Source of the DNA: Candidatus Desantisbacteria bacterium CG1_02_38_46
GTDB lineage: Bacteria; Desantisbacteria; UBA1551; UBA1559
Length of the DNA: 9,002 bases
Assembly: GCA_001871015.1 (NCBI GenBank)
Contig: MNUO01000074.1
Span: 1-9,002, forward strand
Reading direction: 5' to 3'
A program made the position numbers and the translations under genes. Position 1 is the stretch's first letter, and the number at the start of each line of letters is the position of its first letter. The notes beneath the pieces are model-generated. The model was not told where the DNA came from. It did not search any database and worked only from the letters and a program-made list of their open reading frames with translations. Shown here one piece after another: positions 213-9,002 of the stretch.

Positions 213-331
213 TTTTGGGTAAAAAGGTAGGAAATAGTGGGTTGATACGAAGATTTTTAGGTAGGAAAATAGAGGGGAAAAGGTTTTTAAATCAGCTTAA
301 AAATGGAAAGTCTTTATATATCTTGTGTTAA
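197..331 (+). CDS. Possible 44-aa small ORF overlapping the start of the HydB-like gene
   Basis: ATG at 197 follows AGGAGAAG (182-189) at a workable ribosome-binding distance. The frame encodes a short basic peptide beginning MFDGLILGKKVGN and ending LYILC, with TAA at 329-331. Its stop lies 26 bases past the start of the HydB-like gene (303), which itself has no good ribosome-binding site at normal spacing. The overlap would allow translational coupling. I recognise no family, and a chance frame of this size is quite possible. Confidence 0.2.
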   Translation: MFDGLILGKKVGNSGLIRRFLGRKIEGKRFLNQLKNGKSLYILC

Positions 332-1364
332 TTTTAATGGGTTTTTGAAATCCACCCTTGAGAAGAAATGGGAAATATATGCACCTCTCAAGGTAATGGA
401 TAGTATTCGTTTTGAAAAGATTATTGATCCCGCCGCCTTTGGCGGGATTATTTTTGATGGAGTCAGGACAGACCAGTCTGTGAAATCATTCTTCTTCCAC
501 ACAAAAGAGATAGTGGCAACCATCCCAAAATCCTCCATAAGTCCAGTCAAATTTGAAAAAAGAATAATAATGGGTGTTAAAGGTTGTGATTTACATGCGC
601 TCAAAGTATTTGATAAGGCATATTATGAAGAAGGGATAATTCCTGAGCCATTTTACAAGGAAAGAAGAGAATCCACTTATGTTATTTCTAGTGATTGCGG
701 TTATTCTCTGGATTCTTGTTTCTGCACACTACTTGATTCAAAACCATATCCAACAGAAGGGTTTGACCTTAATTTTTCAACACTCAAAGATGGTTTTATT
801 GTAGAGGTAGGTTCTAATAAAGGAGAAGAACTGATAAAGGAAATGGGAGAGTCTGGAGCAGTGCTGTCAGATGTTACTCCAGTACAAATGGAAGAGCAGA
901 AAAGTAATAGGGATACTCTTACGAAAAAATTGGAAGAAGCTAACAGGGAATTTCAGATTCCAAAGAAATTTGATGAATTATGCAAGATTGCCTTTGGCTC
1001 CAAAATCTGGAAAGAACTCGCAGATAATAAATGTGTGCAGTGCAACGGGTGCCTGCATATTTGCCCAACCTGCTACTGTTTCCTTTTATATGATGCGAAG
1101 AAAGACAATTTATCTGAGCGTGTTAGAATCTGGGATGCCTGCATAAATGCTGGTTATGCAAGGGTAGCCGGAGGAGCAAATCCGCGCCCGACCCTGCAAT
1201 CCAGATTGCGACATAGATTCTTCCACAAGTTTCTGTATTTTGTTCAGAATTTTAATATGTATGCTTGCAGTGGTTGCGGCAGGTGTTTTAAAGTTTGTCC
1301 TGGAAAAATAGAAATCCGTGAAACTTTCAGAGACATAAATAAAGAAGTAAAAGTGAAGAGATAA
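303..1364 (+). CDS. hydB: HydB/AsrA-like 4Fe-4S electron-transfer subunit (sulfhydrogenase beta / anaerobic sulfite reductase A family)
   Basis: A 353-residue cytoplasmic iron-sulfur protein expected to relay electrons between the FAD protein encoded next door and the hydrogenase. Family landmarks seen: an N-terminal segment around residues 14-28 (WEIYAPLK), GVKGCDLHALKVFDKAYY (about 91-108), a Cys-rich segment DCGYSLDSCFCT (131-142), and PRPTLQSRLRHRFFHKF (294-310). Two classical [4Fe-4S] motifs follow: C244/C247/C250/C254, with extra Cys at 257 and 259, and C322/C325/C328/C332. No membrane segment is seen. ATG 303 is the only ATG between the upstream in-frame TAA (about 285) and the conserved N-terminus, so the start is firm even though no Shine-Dalgarno sits at normal distance. 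The stop is 6 bases before the HydG-like gene. In group 3b hydrogenases this protein partners HydG, HydD and HydA; here HydD/HydA are replaced by a group 4 enzyme. AsrA of sulfite reductase is the main alternative, but no AsrC gene follows. Confidence 0.85.
   Translation: MESLYISCVNFNGFLKSTLEKKWEIYAPLKVMDSIRFEKIIDPAAFGGIIFDGVRTDQSVKSFFFHTKEIVATIPKSSISPVKFEKRIIMGVKGCDLHALKVFDKAYYEEGIIPEPFYKERRESTYVISSDCGYSLDSCFCTLLDSKPYPTEGFDLNFSTLKDGFIVEVGSNKGEELIKEMGESGAVLSDVTPVQMEEQKSNRDTLTKKLEEANREFQIPKKFDELCKIAFGSKIWKELADNKCVQCNGCLHICPTCYCFLLYDAKKDNLSERVRIWDACINAGYARVAGGANPRPTLQSRLRHRFFHKFLYFVQNFNMYACSGCGRCFKVCPGKIEIRETFRDINKEVKVKR
427..448. repeat. GC-rich 8-bp palindrome inside the HydB-like gene
   Basis: ATCCCGCC (427-434) and GGCGGGAT (441-448) form a perfect stem around GCCTTT. 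It is conspicuously GC-rich for its surroundings and encodes the DPAAFGG region near residue 42. It may be a mini palindromic element tolerated in frame, or simply a local hairpin. Confidence 0.4.
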
Positions 1365-1370
1365 AGATTT

Positions 1371-2201
1371 ATGAAAGAAAATCCGTATCAACCCGTAGAG
1401 GCAAAATTGTTGGAAGTTACAGATGAGACTCCAAATATAAAAACATTTGTTGTAAAACCACTGGAGGAGATTTCCTTCCAGACAGGCCAGTTTATGGAAT
1501 TGACCTGCCCTGGTGTGGGTGAGGCTCCTTTTACTCCTTCCTCTTCGCCTTCAGTTAAGGACAAGATGGAATTTACAATAATGAAGGTTGGGGGAGTAAC
1601 ACAAACCTTGCACGAATTAAAACCTGGCGCAATTGTTGGGTTGCGAGGCCCGTTTGGTAAAGGTTATCCACTTCAAGATTTTGAAGGAAAAGAAGTTTTA
1701 ATTGTTGGAGGCGGTGTAGGGTTGGCTCCGCTGCGGTCTCTTTTGCTTACATTATTAGAGGAAAAAGAAAAATATAAAAAAATAATGCTGTGTTATGGCG
1801 CCAGAAGTCCCCAGGATATAGTTTACAAAGGTTGTGTAAGTGGGTGGTGTGAGGTGAAGTCTTCACTGGATGTGAGATTGACCGTAGATACTGATGAGAA
1901 GAATGAAAGGCCAAAAGGATGCGGGGTTGGACTGGTTACAACTACCTGTGATAGTTTAGGGCTTGATTTGAAGAATAGTGTCGCAATTGTTTGCGGTCCG
2001 CCGATTATGATGAAATTTACTACTTTAAAATTGCTTGATTGCGGATATGCCCCCCAAAATATTTATTTGTCAATGGAAAAGAATATGTCCTGTGGGCTTG
2101 GAATTTGCGGACACTGCATGTTAGATAAATACTTTGTCTGTAAGGACGGCCCAGTGTTTACTTATGAACAATTGAAAGACATTCCTGATATATGGACTTA
2201 A
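1371..2201 (+). CDS. hydG: HydG/AsrB-like FAD/NAD(P)-binding oxidoreductase subunit with C-terminal [2Fe-2S] site
   Basis: A 276-residue ferredoxin-NADP reductase-type protein, expected to exchange electrons with NAD(P)H through FAD. An N-terminal flavin-binding barrel (about 1-100) contains APFTPSSSPS (52-61) and LRGPFGKGYPL (91-101). The nucleotide-binding domain starts at VLIVGGGVGLAPLRSLL (109-125) and includes VCGPPIMMKF (207-216). Near the C-terminus C241, C246, C249 and C257 have the spacing of the [2Fe-2S] site of HydG/PyrK-type electron-transfer subunits. Length fits the family. It follows the HydB-like gene after 6 bases, so the two are almost certainly co-transcribed and form a complex, as in sulfhydrogenases and anaerobic sulfite reductase. 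Preference for NADH or NADPH cannot be read from the sequence with confidence. No good Shine-Dalgarno is seen before ATG 1371; coupling to the preceding gene is likely. Confidence 0.87.
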   Translation: MKENPYQPVEAKLLEVTDETPNIKTFVVKPLEEISFQTGQFMELTCPGVGEAPFTPSSSPSVKDKMEFTIMKVGGVTQTLHELKPGAIVGLRGPFGKGYPLQDFEGKEVLIVGGGVGLAPLRSLLLTLLEEKEKYKKIMLCYGARSPQDIVYKGCVSGWCEVKSSLDVRLTVDTDEKNERPKGCGVGLVTTTCDSLGLDLKNSVAIVCGPPIMMKFTTLKLLDCGYAPQNIYLSMEKNMSCGLGICGHCMLDKYFVCKDGPVFTYEQLKDIPDIWT

Positions 2202-2202
2202 T

Positions 2203-2256
2203 GTAGTGGTCGAGATTGCTCGACAAAATACTGTGCAGAGTAAACTCTGCCACTAC
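2203..2256. repeat. REP-like convergent pair, GTAGTG family (copy 1)
   Basis: GTAGTG (2203-2208) is followed by a 16-nt hairpin GTCGAGATTGCTCGAC (2209-2224). After a 10-nt spacer comes a second hairpin GCAGAGTAAACTCTGC (2235-2250), then the inverted hexamer CACTAC (2251-2256). It starts 1 base after the stop of the HydG-like gene and ends about 12 bases before the ribosome-binding site of the next gene. It could affect mRNA stability or stepped expression between the diaphorase genes and the ferredoxin gene. Confidence 0.85.
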
Positions 2257-2275
2257 AAATTTGATTTGAGGAATA

Positions 2276-2803
2276 ATGAGCAAAAAATTATACATAGATT
2301 TGGAGATTTGTAATAAGTGCCCGAAATGTGTGGTAAAGTGTGCTTATTACCACCATCCTGAGAACAATGGTATAACACACCTTCGGGAAGAAGGTGCTTT
2401 TAATGTGATTTGCCGTCACTGTGATAACGCTCCCTGTATCAATTCCTGTCCGAACGATGCACTTAAAAGGACAGAGGAGCGCGTGATTACCAGAAGTGTA
2501 TTCAAATGCACTGGATGTCATTCCTGTGTTGCTGCTTGTCCTTTTGGTACAATATTTCTCGAGACAATTCCATTTAAGAATTCTCAGTGTGACCTTTGTA
2601 TAGATATTCTTAAGGAAGGCGAAGAACCTGTTTGTGTCCCGACCTGTCCTTATGGAGCGTTGAAATTTGCAGAAGTAGGCTCTGGAAAAGGCGAGATTTC
2701 AGAGTCTCCCGAGGAATTCAAGACATTTGTGGGAAAACGGACACTTGTGCATGTATTACCCTGGAAGAAGCCGATTCCAGTGAAGAAAAAAAGTAATACT
2801 TAA
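2276..2803 (+). CDS. HycB/CooF-like ferredoxin with four [4Fe-4S] clusters
   Basis: A 175-residue electron-transfer protein of the HycB/HydN/CooF type, which links an electron donor to the small subunit of a group 4 hydrogenase. Four cluster motifs are visible in order: C12/C15/C18/C22; C46/C49/C54/C58; C78/C81/C84/C88; and C105/C108/C120/C124. The last three end in Cys-Pro, as usual for this family. No Tat signal or membrane segment is present, so it should be cytoplasmic. The tail after residue 130 is polar and Lys-rich. ATG 2276 is preceded by GAGG (2268-2271). Its position between the HydBG-like pair and the hydrogenase core suggests it is the wire between them. A NuoI/EchF-type two-cluster subunit is not seen in the window, so this protein might also fill that role. 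Confidence 0.85.
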   Translation: MSKKLYIDLEICNKCPKCVVKCAYYHHPENNGITHLREEGAFNVICRHCDNAPCINSCPNDALKRTEERVITRSVFKCTGCHSCVAACPFGTIFLETIPFKNSQCDLCIDILKEGEEPVCVPTCPYGALKFAEVGSGKGEISESPEEFKTFVGKRTLVHVLPWKKPIPVKKKSNT

Positions 2804-2815
2804 TCTATCAGATGT

Positions 2816-2863
2816 GTAACTCAAACCTTCAGGTTTGATATCAGGACTAAAGTCCTGAGTTAC
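2816..2863. repeat. Double-hairpin palindromic repeat, GTAAC family
   Basis: Two adjacent 18-nt hairpins, TCAAACCTTCAGGTTTGA (2821-2838) and TCAGGACTAAAGTCCTGA (2841-2858), are bracketed by GTAAC (2816-2820) and its complement GTTAC (2859-2863). It has the same two-hairpin, inverted-end architecture as the GTAGTG elements but no sequence in common with them. It lies in the 104-base gap between the ferredoxin and NuoH-like genes. Folding could also be one long stem using GTAACTCA/TGAGTTAC. Confidence 0.8.
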
Positions 2864-2907
2864 ATCGCAGGGCTAAATAATTACGAAAAAATAGACAGAA
2901 AAAGACA

Positions 2908-3849
2908 ATGGAAAAATTAGTTCTATATATTTTTTATTTCGTAGTATTCCCGGGGTTGATTTTCACTGCAGTCATAGGACTTCTTGCTGCCTGGGTTGAC
3001 AGAAAAGTTACAGCAAGAGTTCAATATCGGGTGGGACCACCCTGGTATCAAAATTTTGCAGATTTCTTTAAGTTGTTGGGCAAGGAAACAGTAATGCCTG
3101 AAGGAGCAAAGGGTACTGGTTTTCTAATCTCACCCCTTATAGGACTTGCAGGAATAACTCTTGTTTCAACAATTGTTTGGGTGATCAATCTCAACCTCGC
3201 TCCTTCTTTTGTCGGAGATATAATCGTTGTCCTTTATCTTCTAACCCTGCCGTCTCTTGCCGTTATTCTCGGTGCATCTGCTTCCAGAAACCCGGTGGCT
3301 GGTGTTGGAGCAAGCAGGGAAATGAAATTAATTCTGGGATATGAATTGCCCTTTGTTCTTGCAATGATTGTCCCAATTTTAAAAAGTGGTGGTATGCTCA
3401 GGTTTGATAGTCTGCTGGCATATCAAATTAGCACCAGACCATTTTTGTACAGCATATCAGGAGTTATTGCTTTTATAATTGTGATTATCTGCATGCAGGC
3501 AAAACTTACATTTGTTCCTTTTGATATTCCCGAAGCAGAGACAGAAATAATGGCAGGTGCTTATATTGAATATTCAGGTCCTGCTCTTGCCATTTTTAAA
3601 CTCACAAAAGCAATGATGCTCTTTGCAGTGCCAGTTTTCATAATAACGGTTTTCTGGGGAGGTATGCATTTCAATTCCCTGGCAAGTGCAATTCATGCTA
3701 TTCTTAAATACCTTATTATATTAGTAGTGGTGGTTTTGATAAAGAATACCAATCCCAGGTTGCGTATAGACCAGGCAATAAAATTATTCTGGGGTCGGTT
3801 GACTATATGGGCAATTGTTGCAATATTATTTGCAATGGCAGGACTGTAG
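2908..3849 (+). CDS. NuoH/EchB/HycD-like membrane subunit of group 4 [NiFe] hydrogenase
   Basis: A 313-residue polytopic membrane protein with about eight hydrophobic segments, the piece that couples the hydrogenase module to ion-pumping subunits. Family signatures are clear: WVDRKVTARVQYRVGPPWYQ (29-48, matching the NuoH/HycD motif), SREMKLILGYELPF around 145, and FDIPEAETEIMAGAYIEYSGP around 210, the acidic loop facing the quinone/cluster cavity in complex I. Length fits the Ech/Hyc members. The first Met gives a normal N-terminal helix, but only a weak purine-rich stretch (AGAAAAAGA) precedes ATG 2908. The NuoH-B-C-D gene order that follows matches echB-C-D-E. Complex I NuoH is excluded in practice by the catalytic Ni ligands in the partner large subunit. 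Confidence 0.92.
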   Translation: MEKLVLYIFYFVVFPGLIFTAVIGLLAAWVDRKVTARVQYRVGPPWYQNFADFFKLLGKETVMPEGAKGTGFLISPLIGLAGITLVSTIVWVINLNLAPSFVGDIIVVLYLLTLPSLAVILGASASRNPVAGVGASREMKLILGYELPFVLAMIVPILKSGGMLRFDSLLAYQISTRPFLYSISGVIAFIIVIICMQAKLTFVPFDIPEAETEIMAGAYIEYSGPALAIFKLTKAMMLFAVPVFIITVFWGGMHFNSLASAIHAILKYLIILVVVVLIKNTNPRLRIDQAIKLFWGRLTIWAIVAILFAMAGL

Positions 3850-3850
3850 A

Positions 3851-3878
3851 GCAAAAAAGGGGACAGGCTACTTTTTGC
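3851..3878. repeat. Hairpin with GGGGACAGGC core, repeat family remnant
   Basis: GCAAAAAAG (3851-3859) can pair with CTTTTTGC (3871-3878), with one bulged A, around a loop GGGACAGGCTA. It begins 1 base after the stop of the NuoH-like gene. The GGGACAG core is shared with the repeat at 6096-6136, so it is probably a dispersed element. An A+T-rich stem without a following T-run argues against a rho-independent terminator. Confidence 0.6.
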
Positions 3879-3897
3879 ATGACACCAATGGGGCTGG

Positions 3898-3919
3898 GCA
3901 GAGTAAACTCTGCCACTAC
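3898..3919. repeat. Solo REP-like unit, GTAGTG family, inverted orientation (copy 2)
   Basis: GCAGAGTAAACTCTGC (3898-3913) followed by CACTAC (3914-3919) is one half of the paired element seen elsewhere. Nothing resembling the left partner remains, so it is a solo or decayed copy. It lies about 17 bases upstream of the AGGA ribosome-binding site of the NuoB-like gene. Confidence 0.8.
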
Positions 3920-3946
3920 AACTGACGAATCACTAAAGGATATTAA

Positions 3947-4363
3947 ATGAAATTAAAGACATGGGGTTTGAAAAAATCAATCTGGGTTTTTCATGTTTCA
4001 AGTGGTGCGTGCAACAACTGTGACATAGAGGTTTTAGACTGTCTTACTCCAAAGTTTGACATTGAAAGGTTTGGGATGGTGCTTGTTGGTAGTGTCAGAC
4101 ATGCTGATGTTCTACTTTGTTGCGGTGCAATTACCAGACAATCTGCCCCCCGTATAAAGAGGTTATACGAGCAGGCGGCGAAACCCTGTTTTGTGGTGGC
4201 AATAGGTGGTTGTGCCTGTTCGGGAGGGATATTCAAGGGCAGTTATAGCATTGCGGGACCTTATGATAAAATAATACCTGTGCACGCATACATACCTGGT
4301 TGTCCGCCAAAGCCAGAAGCAATAATTGCAGGAGTAGTGAAATTGTTAAGCACGTTGAAGTAA
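3947..4363 (+). CDS. NuoB/EchC/HycG-like [NiFe] hydrogenase small subunit
   Basis: A 138-residue cytoplasmic-side subunit that holds the single proximal [4Fe-4S] cluster (N2-equivalent) next to the NiFe site. Cluster ligands are C22 and C25 (GACNNCDIE), C89 (GGCACSGGIF) and C119 (PGCPPKPEAI), as in NuoB and group 4 small subunits. Additional Cys at 32, 58, 59 and 91 are probably not ligands. The short length, lacking the extra cluster domain of group 1-3 small subunits, is typical of Ech/Mbh/Hyc. ATG 3947 has AGGA at 3937-3940 with a 6-base spacer. It sits between the NuoH- and NuoC-like genes, with repeat elements in the flanking gaps on both sides. Confidence 0.93.
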   Translation: MKLKTWGLKKSIWVFHVSSGACNNCDIEVLDCLTPKFDIERFGMVLVGSVRHADVLLCCGAITRQSAPRIKRLYEQAAKPCFVVAIGGCACSGGIFKGSYSIAGPYDKIIPVHAYIPGCPPKPEAIIAGVVKLLSTLK

Positions 4364-4368
4364 AGAGC

Positions 4369-4418
4369 GTAGTGGTCGACCTTGGTCGACATAATAGCAG
4401 AGTAAACTCTGCCACTAC
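4369..4418. repeat. REP-like convergent pair, GTAGTG family (copy 3)
   Basis: GTAGTG (4369-4374), hairpin GTCGACCTTGGTCGAC (4375-4390), 6-nt spacer, hairpin GCAGAGTAAACTCTGC (4397-4412), CACTAC (4413-4418). The architecture matches the element at 2203-2256, but the left hairpin differs while staying self-complementary. It almost fills the 65-base gap and ends 10 bases before the NuoC-like start codon. Confidence 0.85.
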
Positions 4419-4428
4419 AGAATAAAAT

Positions 4429-4887
4429 ATGGAAGACATAATTCAGAAAATCAAAGACGGGCTTGGGAATAAGATAAAAAAATGGGAAGAGAAGAACCCC
4501 AGGAGAATATATATTACTATCGCTAAAGAAGACACCAAAGAATCTGCCCGTTTTCTTTTTGAAGATTGCAAAGCGAGGTTTGTAATCAGTACAGGGATTG
4601 ATACGCCCGTTGGCTTTGAAATTTTGCACCATTTCAGTTTTGATTCTTTGGGTAAAATCGTTAGCTTAAAGGTGATTGTTCCAAAGTCAAACCCTGAAAT
4701 TGAATCAATAACACCAATTATTTTAGGTGCAGAGTTTATTGAGAGAGAAATCTATGAGATGCTTGGAGTGAAATTTCTAAACCATCCGAAGCTTGAGCGA
4801 CTTCTTCTTTCTGATGACTGGCCAAAGGATATTTGCCCGCTCAGAAAAGATGTAACATTAGGCGGAGAAATTAAAAAAAGTGATTAG
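4429..4887 (+). CDS. NuoC/EchD-like hydrogenase subunit (30-kDa complex I subunit family)
   Basis: A 152-residue soluble subunit that packs against the NuoB/NuoD-like pair; no cofactor is expected. The signature AEFIEREIYEMLGVKF (101-116), followed by HPKLERLLLSDDW (119-131) and CPLRKD (136-141), is the NuoC family block. The N-terminal ~60 residues are less conserved and shorter than in NuoC. In HycE and CooH-like relatives this domain may be fused to the large subunit or separate; here it is a separate gene 12 bases upstream of it. No Shine-Dalgarno is visible before ATG 4429, because a REP-like element occupies the sequence up to 10 bases from the start codon; translation may depend on coupling or be weak. 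Confidence 0.9.
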   Translation: MEDIIQKIKDGLGNKIKKWEEKNPRRIYITIAKEDTKESARFLFEDCKARFVISTGIDTPVGFEILHHFSFDSLGKIVSLKVIVPKSNPEIESITPIILGAEFIEREIYEMLGVKFLNHPKLERLLLSDDWPKDICPLRKDVTLGGEIKKSD

Positions 4888-4899
4888 ATGGAGTTATAA

Positions 4900-6126
4900 A
4901 TGAAAACAGTAATTCCAATAGGTCCATATCATCCATTGCAGGAAGAGCCGGAATTATTTTACCTCACTCTCGATGGTGAAACAGTTGTGGATGTTGATGT
5001 AAGATTGGGTTACAACCATCGTGGCATAGAAAAAATTGCAGAATCCAAGACTTGGGACCAGATTACATTTCTTATTGAAAGAATTTGTGGAATCTGTTCC
5101 ACATCCCATCCGATTGCCTATTGCAATGCTGTTGAGGATTGCGCAGGAATTGAGATTCCCGAGAGAGCAAAATATATCCGTTCAATTATTGGGGAACTGG
5201 AGCGAATTCATTCTCACCTCCTGTGGCTTGGCCTTGCAGGACATTTTCTTGGTTATAATACATTATTTATGTGGGCATGGAAATGGCGTGAACCGGTTCT
5301 TGATTTATTTGAACAAACTACCGGAAATCGCAACCACTATGCAATGATAAAAATTGGTGGTGCCAGAAGAGATATTAAAAATGAAGACATTCCGGCAATT
5401 CGCAAATGCGTTGATAGTCTTGTAGCGCCACTTGAAATGATTACAAAAGCTGCGATTGATGACCCTGTGCTTCATGCAAGATTAAAAGGCGTGGGTGTTC
5501 TTAAAAAAGAAGACGCAATTAAATACTGCGTGGTTGGACCAACTGCGAGGGCATCAGGAGTTGCAATTGATGTCAGAAAAGACGAACCCCATGCTGCATA
5601 TGACATGGTAGAGTGGAATGTAATCACTCAGGAATCAGGGGATGTATTCGCAAAGGCAGTTGTCCGACTCCTCGAGATGTTTGAATCAATAAAAATTATT
5701 CAGCAATGTCTGGATGGTCTTGAGAAGACAAAAGGAGCTGAATTTTGTGTGGAAGTTGAAAATATACCTCCAGGGGATGGAATAGGTCGTTATGAAGCAC
5801 CAAGAGGGGAAACTTATCATTATGTTCGCTCTGATGGGACGAATTGTCCGGTAAGACATAAAATCAGAGCTCCGACATATGTGAACCTTCCTTCTTTTAA
5901 GGCGTCCTGTATTGGGCAGACAATTTCAGATGTTGCGATTACTCTTGCGTCAATTGACCCCTGCTATTGTTGCACAGAAAGAACTGCAATTATTGATTCT
6001 AAGAATGGAAAGAAAGAACATTTGGGTGAAAAGGAATTGATAAGACTTTCACAGGAAAAGACTCAAAAAATCAGAAAAAAGTTAGGGAATCAAGAGGGAC
6101 AGTCCCCATTTTTCCTTGAAAAATAG
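4900..6126 (+). CDS. Group 4 [NiFe] hydrogenase large subunit (NuoD/EchE/HycE-like)
   Basis: A 408-residue catalytic subunit carrying the NiFe(CN)2CO site for reversible H+/H2 conversion. The N-terminal motif RICGICSTSH (61-70) gives C63 and C66, and the C-terminal motif DPCYCCTER (353-361) gives C355 and C358. All four Ni ligands are present, so it is a hydrogenase rather than a quinone-linked NuoD or a cysteine-less relative. C357 stands where Ser is common. Other family blocks: GYNHRGIEKIAE (38-49) and GELERIHSHLLWLG (98-111). About 47 residues follow R361; by analogy with HycE they may be removed by a maturation endopeptidase after that Arg. The last ~9 residues and stop derive from a palindromic repeat (6096-6136). 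ATG 4900 has GGAG at 4890-4893. No maturation (hyp) genes are in the window. Confidence 0.95.
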   Translation: MKTVIPIGPYHPLQEEPELFYLTLDGETVVDVDVRLGYNHRGIEKIAESKTWDQITFLIERICGICSTSHPIAYCNAVEDCAGIEIPERAKYIRSIIGELERIHSHLLWLGLAGHFLGYNTLFMWAWKWREPVLDLFEQTTGNRNHYAMIKIGGARRDIKNEDIPAIRKCVDSLVAPLEMITKAAIDDPVLHARLKGVGVLKKEDAIKYCVVGPTARASGVAIDVRKDEPHAAYDMVEWNVITQESGDVFAKAVVRLLEMFESIKIIQQCLDGLEKTKGAEFCVEVENIPPGDGIGRYEAPRGETYHYVRSDGTNCPVRHKIRAPTYVNLPSFKASCIGQTISDVAITLASIDPCYCCTERTAIIDSKNGKKEHLGEKELIRLSQEKTQKIRKKLGNQEGQSPFFLEK

Positions 6127-6136
6127 GGACAGTCCC
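6096..6136. repeat. Palindromic repeat with two GGGACAGTCCC copies at the 3' end of the large-subunit gene
   Basis: Two identical 11-nt palindromes, GGGACAGTCCC, at 6096-6106 and 6126-6136 flank an imperfect inverted repeat (CCATTTTTC / GAAAAATAGG) with a CTTG turn. The element overlaps the last codons and TAG stop (6124-6126) of the large-subunit gene and ends 5 bases before the GGAG of the next gene. It shares GGGACAG with the hairpin at 3851-3878. Confidence 0.8.
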
Positions 6137-6151
6137 TATACGGAGAAATAG

Positions 6152-7555
6152 ATGTGTAGTTGGTTGCCAGTTTTTATTCAAGACCTGTTTGTTGTGGATG
6201 CCATTGGCTGGATTTTTGCATCTGTATTCGGATTTATTGGTATTCTCGCATTCATATATTCCTTTTCGTATATGAAAAAATATACACATCTTGGCGAATA
6301 TTATCTTGCTTTTGTATTACTCATCTTGTCTTTAATCGGTCTTTCCTTTTCCAGAAATCTTATCCTTATATATATATTCTGGGAACTGGTAGCATTTTCC
6401 ACCTGGCGACTTGTCGGGTTTCACAGAGAACCTGAAGCAGTAAAGATTGCTGATAAAACATTTCTTATTATGTTTTTTGGTTCCTGCATGATGCTTTTAG
6501 GTTTCATATTACTATATTTTAACTTTGATACTTTTGATATTCTTGAAATGCGTGGGCTTTTCATCGCAGGTTTGGCAAAGCCTTCTGTAATGACAATGGT
6601 TCTTATATTTCTTGGTATTATTGCCAAATCTGCTACAATTCCATTGCATACCTGGCTTGCAGATGCACACCCGGTAGCTCCATCTCCAATGAGCGCAGTT
6701 CTTTCTGGGTTGGTGGCAAAGGTCGGAATTCTTGGATTTGTGCGAATTTTTGTGCAGACTTTCGGGTTGACAAACAACTGGATTTTGATTCTTGCCGGGA
6801 TAAGCTCAATAACAGCAGCAGGTGCAGCAATGCTCGAAAACGACATGAAAAGAATTATTGCTTATTCCACAGTGAGCCAGTTAGGATATATATTCTTAGG
6901 GCTTGGATTGATGACAAATTTAGGTATAATTTCTGGATTACTATATTTTATGGCTCATGCTATTGCAAAAGCTGGTTTATTTTTGTGTGCGGGTATTGTG
7001 GAGCGCTCAACCGGAGAGAGGGATATTCGTAAATTAGGTGGACTTATAAAATCAATGCCAGTAACAGGCGTTTCGTTCTTATTCTGCACGCTATCTATTA
7101 TGGGAATTCCTCCATTTTTTGGATTTTATCCGAAACTTGGAACTATAATGGGATTGGTTGAAAAAGGCCACTTTTATATAGCAATTCTCTCCATTATTAT
7201 TGCAATTATGACAATTCTTTATTTGATGAGAATATTCAATGCTGTTTTCTTGGGGACTAATGAAGTAAGTCGAGCAAGCTCGCCCACTACAAGTAGTGGC
7301 AGAGTTTACTCTGCAAATAAGGTAAGTCGAGCAAGCTCGACCACTACAAGTAGTGGCAGAGTTTACTCTGCAAATAAGGTAAGTCGAGCAAGCTCGCCCA
7401 CTACAGGTAGTGGCAGAGTTTACTCTGCAAATATTGAAGGCACTAAATTAATGTTAGCAGTTGTTATTATACTTGCAACTCTTTCATTGCAACTCGGTCT
7501 GTTTATAAATATTCCTTTAGATTTTGTACAGGGAGCGGTAAATATAATAAGGTAA
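6152..7555 (+). CDS. NuoL/M/N-like antiporter-type membrane subunit with in-frame repeat insertion
   Basis: A 467-residue polytopic membrane protein of the proton-translocating complex I/Mrp antiporter family. Key channel residues are present: E78 in IFWELV (TM5 Glu), K159 in AKSATIPLHTWLADAH (TM7 Lys), K190 in LVAKVG (TM8 Lys), H270/K273 in AHAIAKAGLF, and K328 in PFFGFYPKLG (TM12 Lys). It begins close to the VVDAIGWIF segment, so it lacks most of the first one or two helices of NuoM-type proteins. After LRIF/LMRIFNAVFLG (about 359-368) residues 372-426 are three 19-residue repeats (VSRASS..TTSSGRVYSANK), hydrophilic and encoded by REP-like DNA. The reading frame then resumes with a final hydrophobic helix. 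Without them the protein is about 410 residues. ATG 6152 follows GGAG (6142-6145). It probably conducts H+ (or Na+). Confidence 0.9.
   Translation: MCSWLPVFIQDLFVVDAIGWIFASVFGFIGILAFIYSFSYMKKYTHLGEYYLAFVLLILSLIGLSFSRNLILIYIFWELVAFSTWRLVGFHREPEAVKIADKTFLIMFFGSCMMLLGFILLYFNFDTFDILEMRGLFIAGLAKPSVMTMVLIFLGIIAKSATIPLHTWLADAHPVAPSPMSAVLSGLVAKVGILGFVRIFVQTFGLTNNWILILAGISSITAAGAAMLENDMKRIIAYSTVSQLGYIFLGLGLMTNLGIISGLLYFMAHAIAKAGLFLCAGIVERSTGERDIRKLGGLIKSMPVTGVSFLFCTLSIMGIPPFFGFYPKLGTIMGLVEKGHFYIAILSIIIAIMTILYLMRIFNAVFLGTNEVSRASSPTTSSGRVYSANKVSRASSTTTSSGRVYSANKVSRASSPTTGSGRVYSANIEGTKLMLAVVIILATLSLQLGLFINIPLDFVQGAVNIIR
7265..7428. repeat. Three tandem 57-nt REP-like units inside a coding region (GTAGTG family, copies 4-6)
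   Basis: Unit starts are 7265, 7322 and 7379. Each has GTAA, a 16-nt hairpin (GTCGAGCAAGCTCG then CC, AC, CC in the three units), CACTAC, AA or AG, GTAGTG, hairpin GCAGAGTTTACTCTGC, and (first two units) AAATAAG. The third unit loses the trailing spacer after 7428. Each unit is a divergent pair with the CACTAC/GTAGTG hexamers back to back. The 57-nt period is 19 codons, and only one forward frame lacks stops; that is the frame used by the gene. Confidence 0.92.
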
Positions 7556-7653
7556 GGCGAGTAAACTCGCCCACTACAAGTAGTGGCAGACCTTGGTCTG
7601 CAATTTAGGCGAGTAAACTCGCCCACTACAAGTAGTGGCAGAGTTTACTCTGC
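7556..7653. repeat. Two tandem REP-like divergent pairs (GTAGTG family, copies 7-8)
   Basis: Unit A: GGCGAGTAAACTCGCC (7556-7571), CACTAC, AA, GTAGTG, GCAGACCTTGGTCTGC (7586-7601). A 6-nt spacer, then unit B: GGCGAGTAAACTCGCC (7608-7623), CACTAC, AA, GTAGTG, GCAGAGTTTACTCTGC (7638-7653). The period is 52 nt. The array begins at the base after the TAA of the preceding gene and ends 7 bases before the AGGA of the next, so it fills the gap between the two antiporter-like genes. Confidence 0.9.
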
Positions 7654-7670: not shown

Positions 7671-9002
7671 ATGATTATTCTTGTATATTCAATTTTCTTG
7701 CCAGTTTTGGGCGGACTAATCTGTCTGTTAATTCCTAATAGAGTAAAAATTATTAAAGAGGGAATTGCTCTGATAGCAAGTTTTAGTGCTTTGATTCTCG
7801 GTATAGCTATCTTTAAAGAAAAGGGTGCAATTTTTAGCCTGGATTTAGGTTTGCTTACACAGTTGCTTGGGATCAAACTTGACCTCAGGGTTGACCATTT
7901 AAATTCTTTTATACTTATGTTTATAACCTTTTTCGGTTTTCTGGTTACCCTCTATTCCATTAAATTTATGGAAGGTAAAAATAGGTTGAATGAGTATTAT
8001 GCCTATCTTCTTCTGAATGTTGGAGTTGCAAGTGGAGCGGTGCTTTCAAACAATCTTTTGACCCTGCTGATATTCTGGGATGTGGTTTTGCTCTGTCTTT
8101 ATGGAATGATCAGTATCGGTGGTGCATCTGCTGCCTCAGGCAGTGCCAAGAAATCCTTTATTATTATTGGAGTTTCTGATTTCTTGATGCTACTCGGGAT
8201 TCTTCTGGTATGGTATATGACAAAAAGCTTTAGTATGGATACAATAAAAGGAGCTCTATTTACCGGCGCAAGTTTTAAAATAAGTGTACTCGCGTTTATA
8301 TTCATCACTTGTGGTGCCCTTGCAAAAGCAGGTTCAATGCCTTTCCACACCTGGATTCCTGATGCCAGCACTGAAGCACCGATTCCTGTAATGGCATTCT
8401 TGCCAGCTTCTCTCGATAAACTCCTCGGTATTTATTTGCTTGTCAGGATTACTTCAGATTTGTTTATAATGACTCCATGGCTGGGGATGATTCTAATGTT
8501 TATTGGTGCTTTTACTATTGTAGCAGCGGCAATGATGGCTTTGGTTCAGAATGACCCGAGAAAACTTCTCGCCTATTTGATTGTTAGTTCTTCCGGGTAT
8601 ATGATTCTGGCTCTGGGCACAATGCAGAAAACAGGAATTGCCGGGGGTTTATTTTACATGTTGAACGCTGTCATATGCGGATTTTGTCTGTTTTCCTGTA
8701 TAGGAGCTGTGAAAAAACAATCTGAAACAGCAGAGGGTCAATCTGGATTGGCAACTGCTTTGCCAATTACTTTTGCTGCCTGTTTGATTACTTCTCTGTC
8801 AATGTCAGGAGTTCCTCCTCTTAGTGGTTTTGTCTCTAAGTGGATGGTATATCAAGGAGTAATACAGTCAGCAAGTTCACAAGTTAATCAGTTGGCAAGT
8901 TTCTTTTGCTGGATATTTCTTGTGTCTGCAATGTTTGGTTCTGCACTGACTCTTGCCTCATTTATGAAATTGATTCATTCCACATTTTTTGGTCAACCTG
9001 TT
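7671..9002 (+). CDS. Second NuoL/M/N-like antiporter-type membrane subunit (3' end outside window)
   Basis: The frame is open from ATG 7671 to the window edge (444 codons, no stop), so the C-terminus is missing. ATG has AGGA at 7661-7664, 6 bases upstream. It is a polytopic membrane protein with the complete N-terminal helices (MIILVYSIFLPVLGGLICLL). Family motifs: AKAGSMPFHTWIPDAS (218-233, TM7 K219), LDKLLGIY (249-256, TM8 K250), NDPRKLLAY (294-302), and GVPPLSGFVSKW (380-391, TM12 K390). Two usual features differ. TM5 Glu is Asp (IFWDVV, D137), and the His/Lys helix normally reading HAxxKAxLF reads LNAVICGFCLF (331-341). It may therefore be a HyfB/NuoN-like paralogue with a modified channel. 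It probably forms the membrane arm together with the preceding subunit. Confidence 0.9.
   Translation, partial: MIILVYSIFLPVLGGLICLLIPNRVKIIKEGIALIASFSALILGIAIFKEKGAIFSLDLGLLTQLLGIKLDLRVDHLNSFILMFITFFGFLVTLYSIKFMEGKNRLNEYYAYLLLNVGVASGAVLSNNLLTLLIFWDVVLLCLYGMISIGGASAASGSAKKSFIIIGVSDFLMLLGILLVWYMTKSFSMDTIKGALFTGASFKISVLAFIFITCGALAKAGSMPFHTWIPDASTEAPIPVMAFLPASLDKLLGIYLLVRITSDLFIMTPWLGMILMFIGAFTIVAAAMMALVQNDPRKLLAYLIVSSSGYMILALGTMQKTGIAGGLFYMLNAVICGFCLFSCIGAVKKQSETAEGQSGLATALPITFAACLITSLSMSGVPPLSGFVSKWMVYQGVIQSASSQVNQLASFFCWIFLVSAMFGSALTLASFMKLIHSTFFGQPV

Follow-up and report, generated by a model that had tools for sequence, protein, structure and literature searches.

A tandem array of GTAG REPs lies in frame within a predicted loop of an antiporter-like subunit in an uncultured relative of Candidatus Desantisbacteria

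We show that the gene for a NuoM/MrpD-like antiporter subunit (467 aa, positions 6152-7555, forward strand) in the 9,002-nt window, i.e., the whole stretch of DNA analyzed, carries an array of GTAG REPs in frame with the rest of the coding sequence. The array is absent from the nearest homologue, and the same pattern is repeated across the genome. We consider it highly probable that a tandem GTAG REP cluster was inserted into a tolerant loop, amplified, and read in frame as a passenger, whose effect on the subunit would be near neutral.

As originally predicted, the pump gene contains three in-frame 57-nt units within a single 467-codon ORF, which Tandem Repeats Finder placed at 7265-7433 of the forward strand (3.0 copies, 97% matches, 0 indels). 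Each unit consists of a reverse REP, 2 bases, a forward REP, and an 11-nt linker, so that the two REPs form an inverted pair with facing tails: 7269-7290 and 7293-7314 in unit 1 (7269-7314), 7326-7347 and 7350-7371 in unit 2 (7326-7371), and 7383-7404 and 7407-7428 in unit 3 (7383-7428). All units have GTAG at one end of a short stem-loop (GTAGTGGCAGAGTTTACTCTGC and GTAGTGGNCGAGCTTGCTCGAC), and the 46-nt core of unit 2 is identical to a REP pair within trpE of the same genome. The encoded insert is VSRASSPTTSSGRVYSANK-VSRASSTTTSSGRVYSANK-VSRASSPTTGSGRVYSAN. Among the forward frames, that of the gene is the only one free of stops, the second having a TAA in every unit and the third both TAG and TAA; this part of the earlier frame claim stands, but one frame of the reverse strand is likewise open and had been missed.

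The assignment of the units to the same family as the intergenic REP-like elements was also borne out, with REPs at four intergenic sites of the operon: pairs of a forward followed by a reverse REP at 2203-2256 and 4369-4418 (forward strand), a lone REP at 3898-3919 (reverse strand), and, immediately 3′ of the antiporter gene, an array of two REP pairs with a 52-nt unit at 7556-7653 (forward strand, Tandem Repeats Finder). These intergenic copies, along with the strong folding of the array as RNA (z = -7.0 against dinucleotide shuffles), could suggest that the array acts mainly in the mRNA, where its hairpins would tune the stability or translation of the downstream subunits and the loop would be a side effect. 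We find this very improbable, as ribosomes open hairpins in translated regions, the next intergenic array already supplies hairpins, and unrelated genes show the same pattern within their coding regions.

The closest homologue found belongs to Candidatus Desantisbacteria CG1_02_49_89, of the same order and a different family, and is 77-78% identical to the subunit. Where the homologue reads FLG-SGSRELAPAR-EGTVLM, the host reads FLG-TNE-(array)-I-EGTKLM, giving 10 and 60 residues, respectively, between FLG and EGT; judged by this alignment, the array is an insertion rather than an ancestral loop. The frame then resumes, as had been claimed, into a normal C-terminal helix: 28 of the 39 residues encoded at 7436-7552 (forward strand), which cover the last transmembrane helix and the C-terminus, are identical to the homologue (72%). 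The region 3′ of the insert has a pS of 0.83 and a pN of 0.21, which reflect constraint across the whole divergence and do not necessarily imply constraint after insertion, as the purifying selection may predate a recent insertion. A recent insertion could also have inactivated or weakened the subunit, the gene being on its way to becoming a pseudogene; the near-identical units suggest recent amplification, and the neighboring antiporter gene, itself a diverged paralogue, has lost conserved residues. However, the frame is intact, the C-terminal helix is conserved, the insert is placed in a loop, and many other REP-bearing genes are normally essential (topA, ispE, and tsaB), making this reading extremely improbable.

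The Pfam domain Proton_antipo_M (E 5.9e-65) covers residues 67-353 of the subunit, and its AlphaFold2 model, built on a five-sequence alignment (mean pLDDT 63.6, pTM 0.67), matched the folds of MrpD, ND4, and NuoN from end to end (Z 35-37). Against 7qru_D, 404 residues were aligned with a Z of 37.4 and an rmsd of 2.9, and both domain and fold place the subunit among NuoL/M/N and MrpA/D. The description as NuoM-like holds insofar as this is an antiporter-like subunit, but it is better assigned to a group 4 [NiFe]-hydrogenase-type complex, of which it would be the antiporter subunit. In the model, residues 370-430 are unstructured (pLDDT < 50) and lie between helices 341-367 and 432-450, so the insert is predicted to be disordered and to sit between the last two transmembrane helices, in agreement with the loop position proposed from the sequence. 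From the known 14-helix plan of antiporter-like subunits, we take this to be the TM13-TM14 loop, which is probably cytoplasmic; that side agrees with the positive charge of the insert (six Arg, two Lys, and no acidic residues). The translated insert would probably form a flexible, positively charged loop of ~55 extra residues rich in Ser, Thr, Arg, and Val. The original prediction had also raised the recruitment of a new loop domain, which found no support: the units are near-identical in DNA, and the predicted disorder and the presence of the same peptide in TrpE lead us to reject a recruited folded domain.

The host genome, of which the window is contig C118, is a 1.73-Mb draft of 133 contigs, in which the strict REP motif occurs 186 times, while the reversed control gave 0 matches, ruling out chance similarity. 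In the stretches around 181 of these 186 copies, and allowing up to two mismatches, we counted 222 REPs in 89 clusters, with gaps of 1-2 nt between tails and mostly 5-6 nt between heads. As in a dispersed, high-copy, mostly intergenic family, 71 of the 89 clusters are not in frame within a recognized gene. Among 386 genomes searched, the motif had matches in 18; besides the host, more than one copy was found in a sister genome (16) and in three genomes outside the host's order (G087, 67 copies; G114, 9; G337, 3).

The array is not an unusual case in this genome. In-frame REPs (18/89 clusters) were found in at least 17 recognizable genes, i.e., at least 16 in addition to the antiporter subunit gene: topA, dprA, ispE, a 5′-nucleotidase-like fusion, a radical SAM/DUF2344 gene, asd, thiL (twice), tsaB, an oligopeptide ABC ATPase gene, thrC, hypD, a GIY-YIG protein gene, aroA, trpE, trpG, and mfd. 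These names come from Pfam, except for the nucleotidase-like fusion, which had no Pfam match and was named from its sequence. Pfam domains extend across or flank the inserts, and in ThrC, Asd, IspE, TrpE, and AroA the insert coincides with an alignment gap, or with a break between two matched halves, relative to solved homologues. In-gene REPs are located in loops or linkers that tolerate indels. These genes also bear on whether REP repeats confused the short-read assembly, leaving the copy number or the array itself wrong. The draft is repeat-rich, and contig C110 breaks beside a REP cluster, but a short read roughly equals the three units in length, the gene continues in frame on both flanks, in-frame REPs occur independently in 16 other genes, and the thrC site is common to the assembly of another genome; an artefact is therefore extremely unlikely.

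The forward REP has two stop-free readings (VVAEFTL and SGRVYSA), as does the reverse REP (RVNSATT and QSKLCHY). Of the 15 sites with a forward in-gene REP, trpG included, 14 used the SGRVYSA frame (one-sided binomial ~0.0005 if both frames are equally likely), or 14 of 16 (~0.002) when an ambiguous N-terminal case is counted against it, a bias that would reflect a polar turn being more acceptable than a hydrophobic strand. Spacings between REPs of the same orientation were multiples of three in 20/20 cases in genes versus 34/82 elsewhere. Because open-frame clusters had been selected, the outcome of both tests, spacing and frame, is to some extent built in, and the spacing is consistent with the passenger reading rather than proof of it.

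In the relative CG1_02_49_89, thrC carries a single REP at the same codon as the host thrC (sites at L090, about 7115-7164, and L106, about 1640-1660), and the REPs of the two genomes differ by a compensatory loop change, CTTG to TTTA, each being the commonest form in its genome. The TsaB and Asd proteins of the relative have different palindromic repeats (KSPLTPLYERGDGG and LSQIYRPDGHRGVESGLSQ) in the loops occupied by GTAG REPs in the host. The shared thrC site and the swapped tsaB and asd palindromes favor tolerant loops that collect whichever repeat is active. They also touch on the suggestion that the REP-encoded loop was recruited with a function, e.g., contact with a partner subunit, with the peptide and copy number under selection. 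Both the predominance of the polar SGRVYSA frame and the maintenance of the thrC REP at one codon in two GTDB families could be read in that way, but tolerance of polar turns accounts for the frame bias, the same peptide is found in unrelated proteins, the insert is predicted to be disordered, and unrelated repeats occupy the same loops in sister proteins. We regard such recruitment as very improbable.

In the model that we favor, GTAG-type REPs, which are non-autonomous mobile palindromes, are probably spread by a RAYT-type transposase and insert everywhere. Using a six-frame search, we found a RAYT gene in the genome (327 aa, with a DnaA-like C-terminus; 82.1 bits versus an NCBIfam cut-off of 80); a second RAYT gene is interrupted by an internal stop. 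Neither gene has a GTAGTGG within about 1.5 kb, unlike the RAYT gene of a REPtron, which is flanked by its REPs, so we infer RAYT-driven spread from REP biology, and the mobilizer is not tied to these REPs. A Y1 transposase fragment near a REP on contig C53 was set aside, as the contig end cuts it short and the RAYT family model missed it. We propose that the loop joining the final two transmembrane helices of the antiporter-like subunit received one REP pair, which later expanded to three units, with the near-identical units pointing to replication slippage or recombination. The survival of the array would be explained by a loop that accommodates additional residues, a 57-nt unit that equals 19 codons, and an orientation and phase free of stops. 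More generally, REP copies that land in loops with an open frame and a length divisible by three may survive as passengers and could expand in tandem.

With alternating inverted REPs in tandem and short linkers, the array resembles the BIME-type REP arrays of enterobacteria; these are typically intergenic, unlike the array found here within a gene. A 2013 survey of GTAG and CGTC REPs by Di Nocera and co-workers described REPs located wholly within ORFs, over half of them as dimers or groups, with intragenic clusters in Thauera and R. conorii that encode 43-82 residues, and suggested neutral insertion in loops (PMC3733652). The REPs of our host share with those GTAG REPs the GTAG tail, the short stem-loop, the inverted pairs and clusters, a RAYT gene in the genome, and many intergenic copies along with some, grouped ones included, in frame in genes. 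The likeness to the 24 families of that survey (PMC3733652) is one of architecture and distribution, and our case differs in that it comes from an uncultured relative of Candidatus Desantisbacteria and that about one REP cluster in five is in a gene.

The resemblance to Rickettsia palindromic elements noted originally holds as an analogy, as both are palindromic repeats found in frame in unrelated genes (17 here) at residue-tolerant positions. However, those elements are about 150 bp long (PMC10969869), whereas the unit here is a pair of 22-nt GTAG REPs, and the likeness is one of insertion pattern; GTAG REPs, with published grouped or tandem copies in genes (PMC3733652), are the closer match. 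PARCEL palindromic coding repeats (PMC2996958) are similar in that palindromic DNA encodes tandem peptide repeats, but they are amphipathic repeat domains, whereas ours is a loop predicted to be disordered. In-gene REP insertion is already known from a few other bacteria, and our case, which belongs to that kind, widens its range to include an uncultured lineage as well as a subunit of a membrane pump. Its value lies in the unusual richness of the set, with 17 genes in a 1.7-Mb draft, and in a close relative that allows a before/after comparison. SGRVYSA, VVAEFTL, RVNSATT, and QSKLCHY peptides in annotations can be translated repeats.

Comparing thrC, tsaB, and asd makes it possible to test whether such loops only tolerate insertions or allow new protein parts to arise. 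REPs might be a recurrent source of new protein loops in this lineage, with the encoded peptide acting as the filter on both the hairpin sequence and the insertion. Core enzymes and a respiratory-type pump would then gather polar SGRVYSA-type loops, some of which would be fixed and gain a function, a scenario we consider rather unlikely.

Other repeats were observed beside the REPs. A tandem IHRTCSGT peptide occurs in HypD (L092, 4875-6080) and a tandem ECVTQDF peptide in the radical SAM protein (L070, 3-2288), suggesting that more repeat families are read in frame. The operon at 303-6126 resembles a group 4 [NiFe]-hydrogenase-type complex with sulfhydrogenase beta/gamma-like NAD(P)H subunits, and its large subunit retains RICGICSTSH and DPCYCC. 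At the 3′ end of the large-subunit gene (6092-6139), GGGACAGTCCC palindromes are located 30 nt apart, one of them forming the in-frame C-terminus, and a similar repeat, GGGACTGTCCC, is present in the asd loop of the relative. The next antiporter-subunit gene (7671-9002), a diverged paralogue of a gene on contig C110 (83% DNA identity over 950 nt), has LNAVICGF in place of LNHAIYKS, with loss of residues conserved in pumping subunits. Contig C110 opens on the final bases of the nuoM-like gene together with one REP pair, which suggests a REP-associated duplication.
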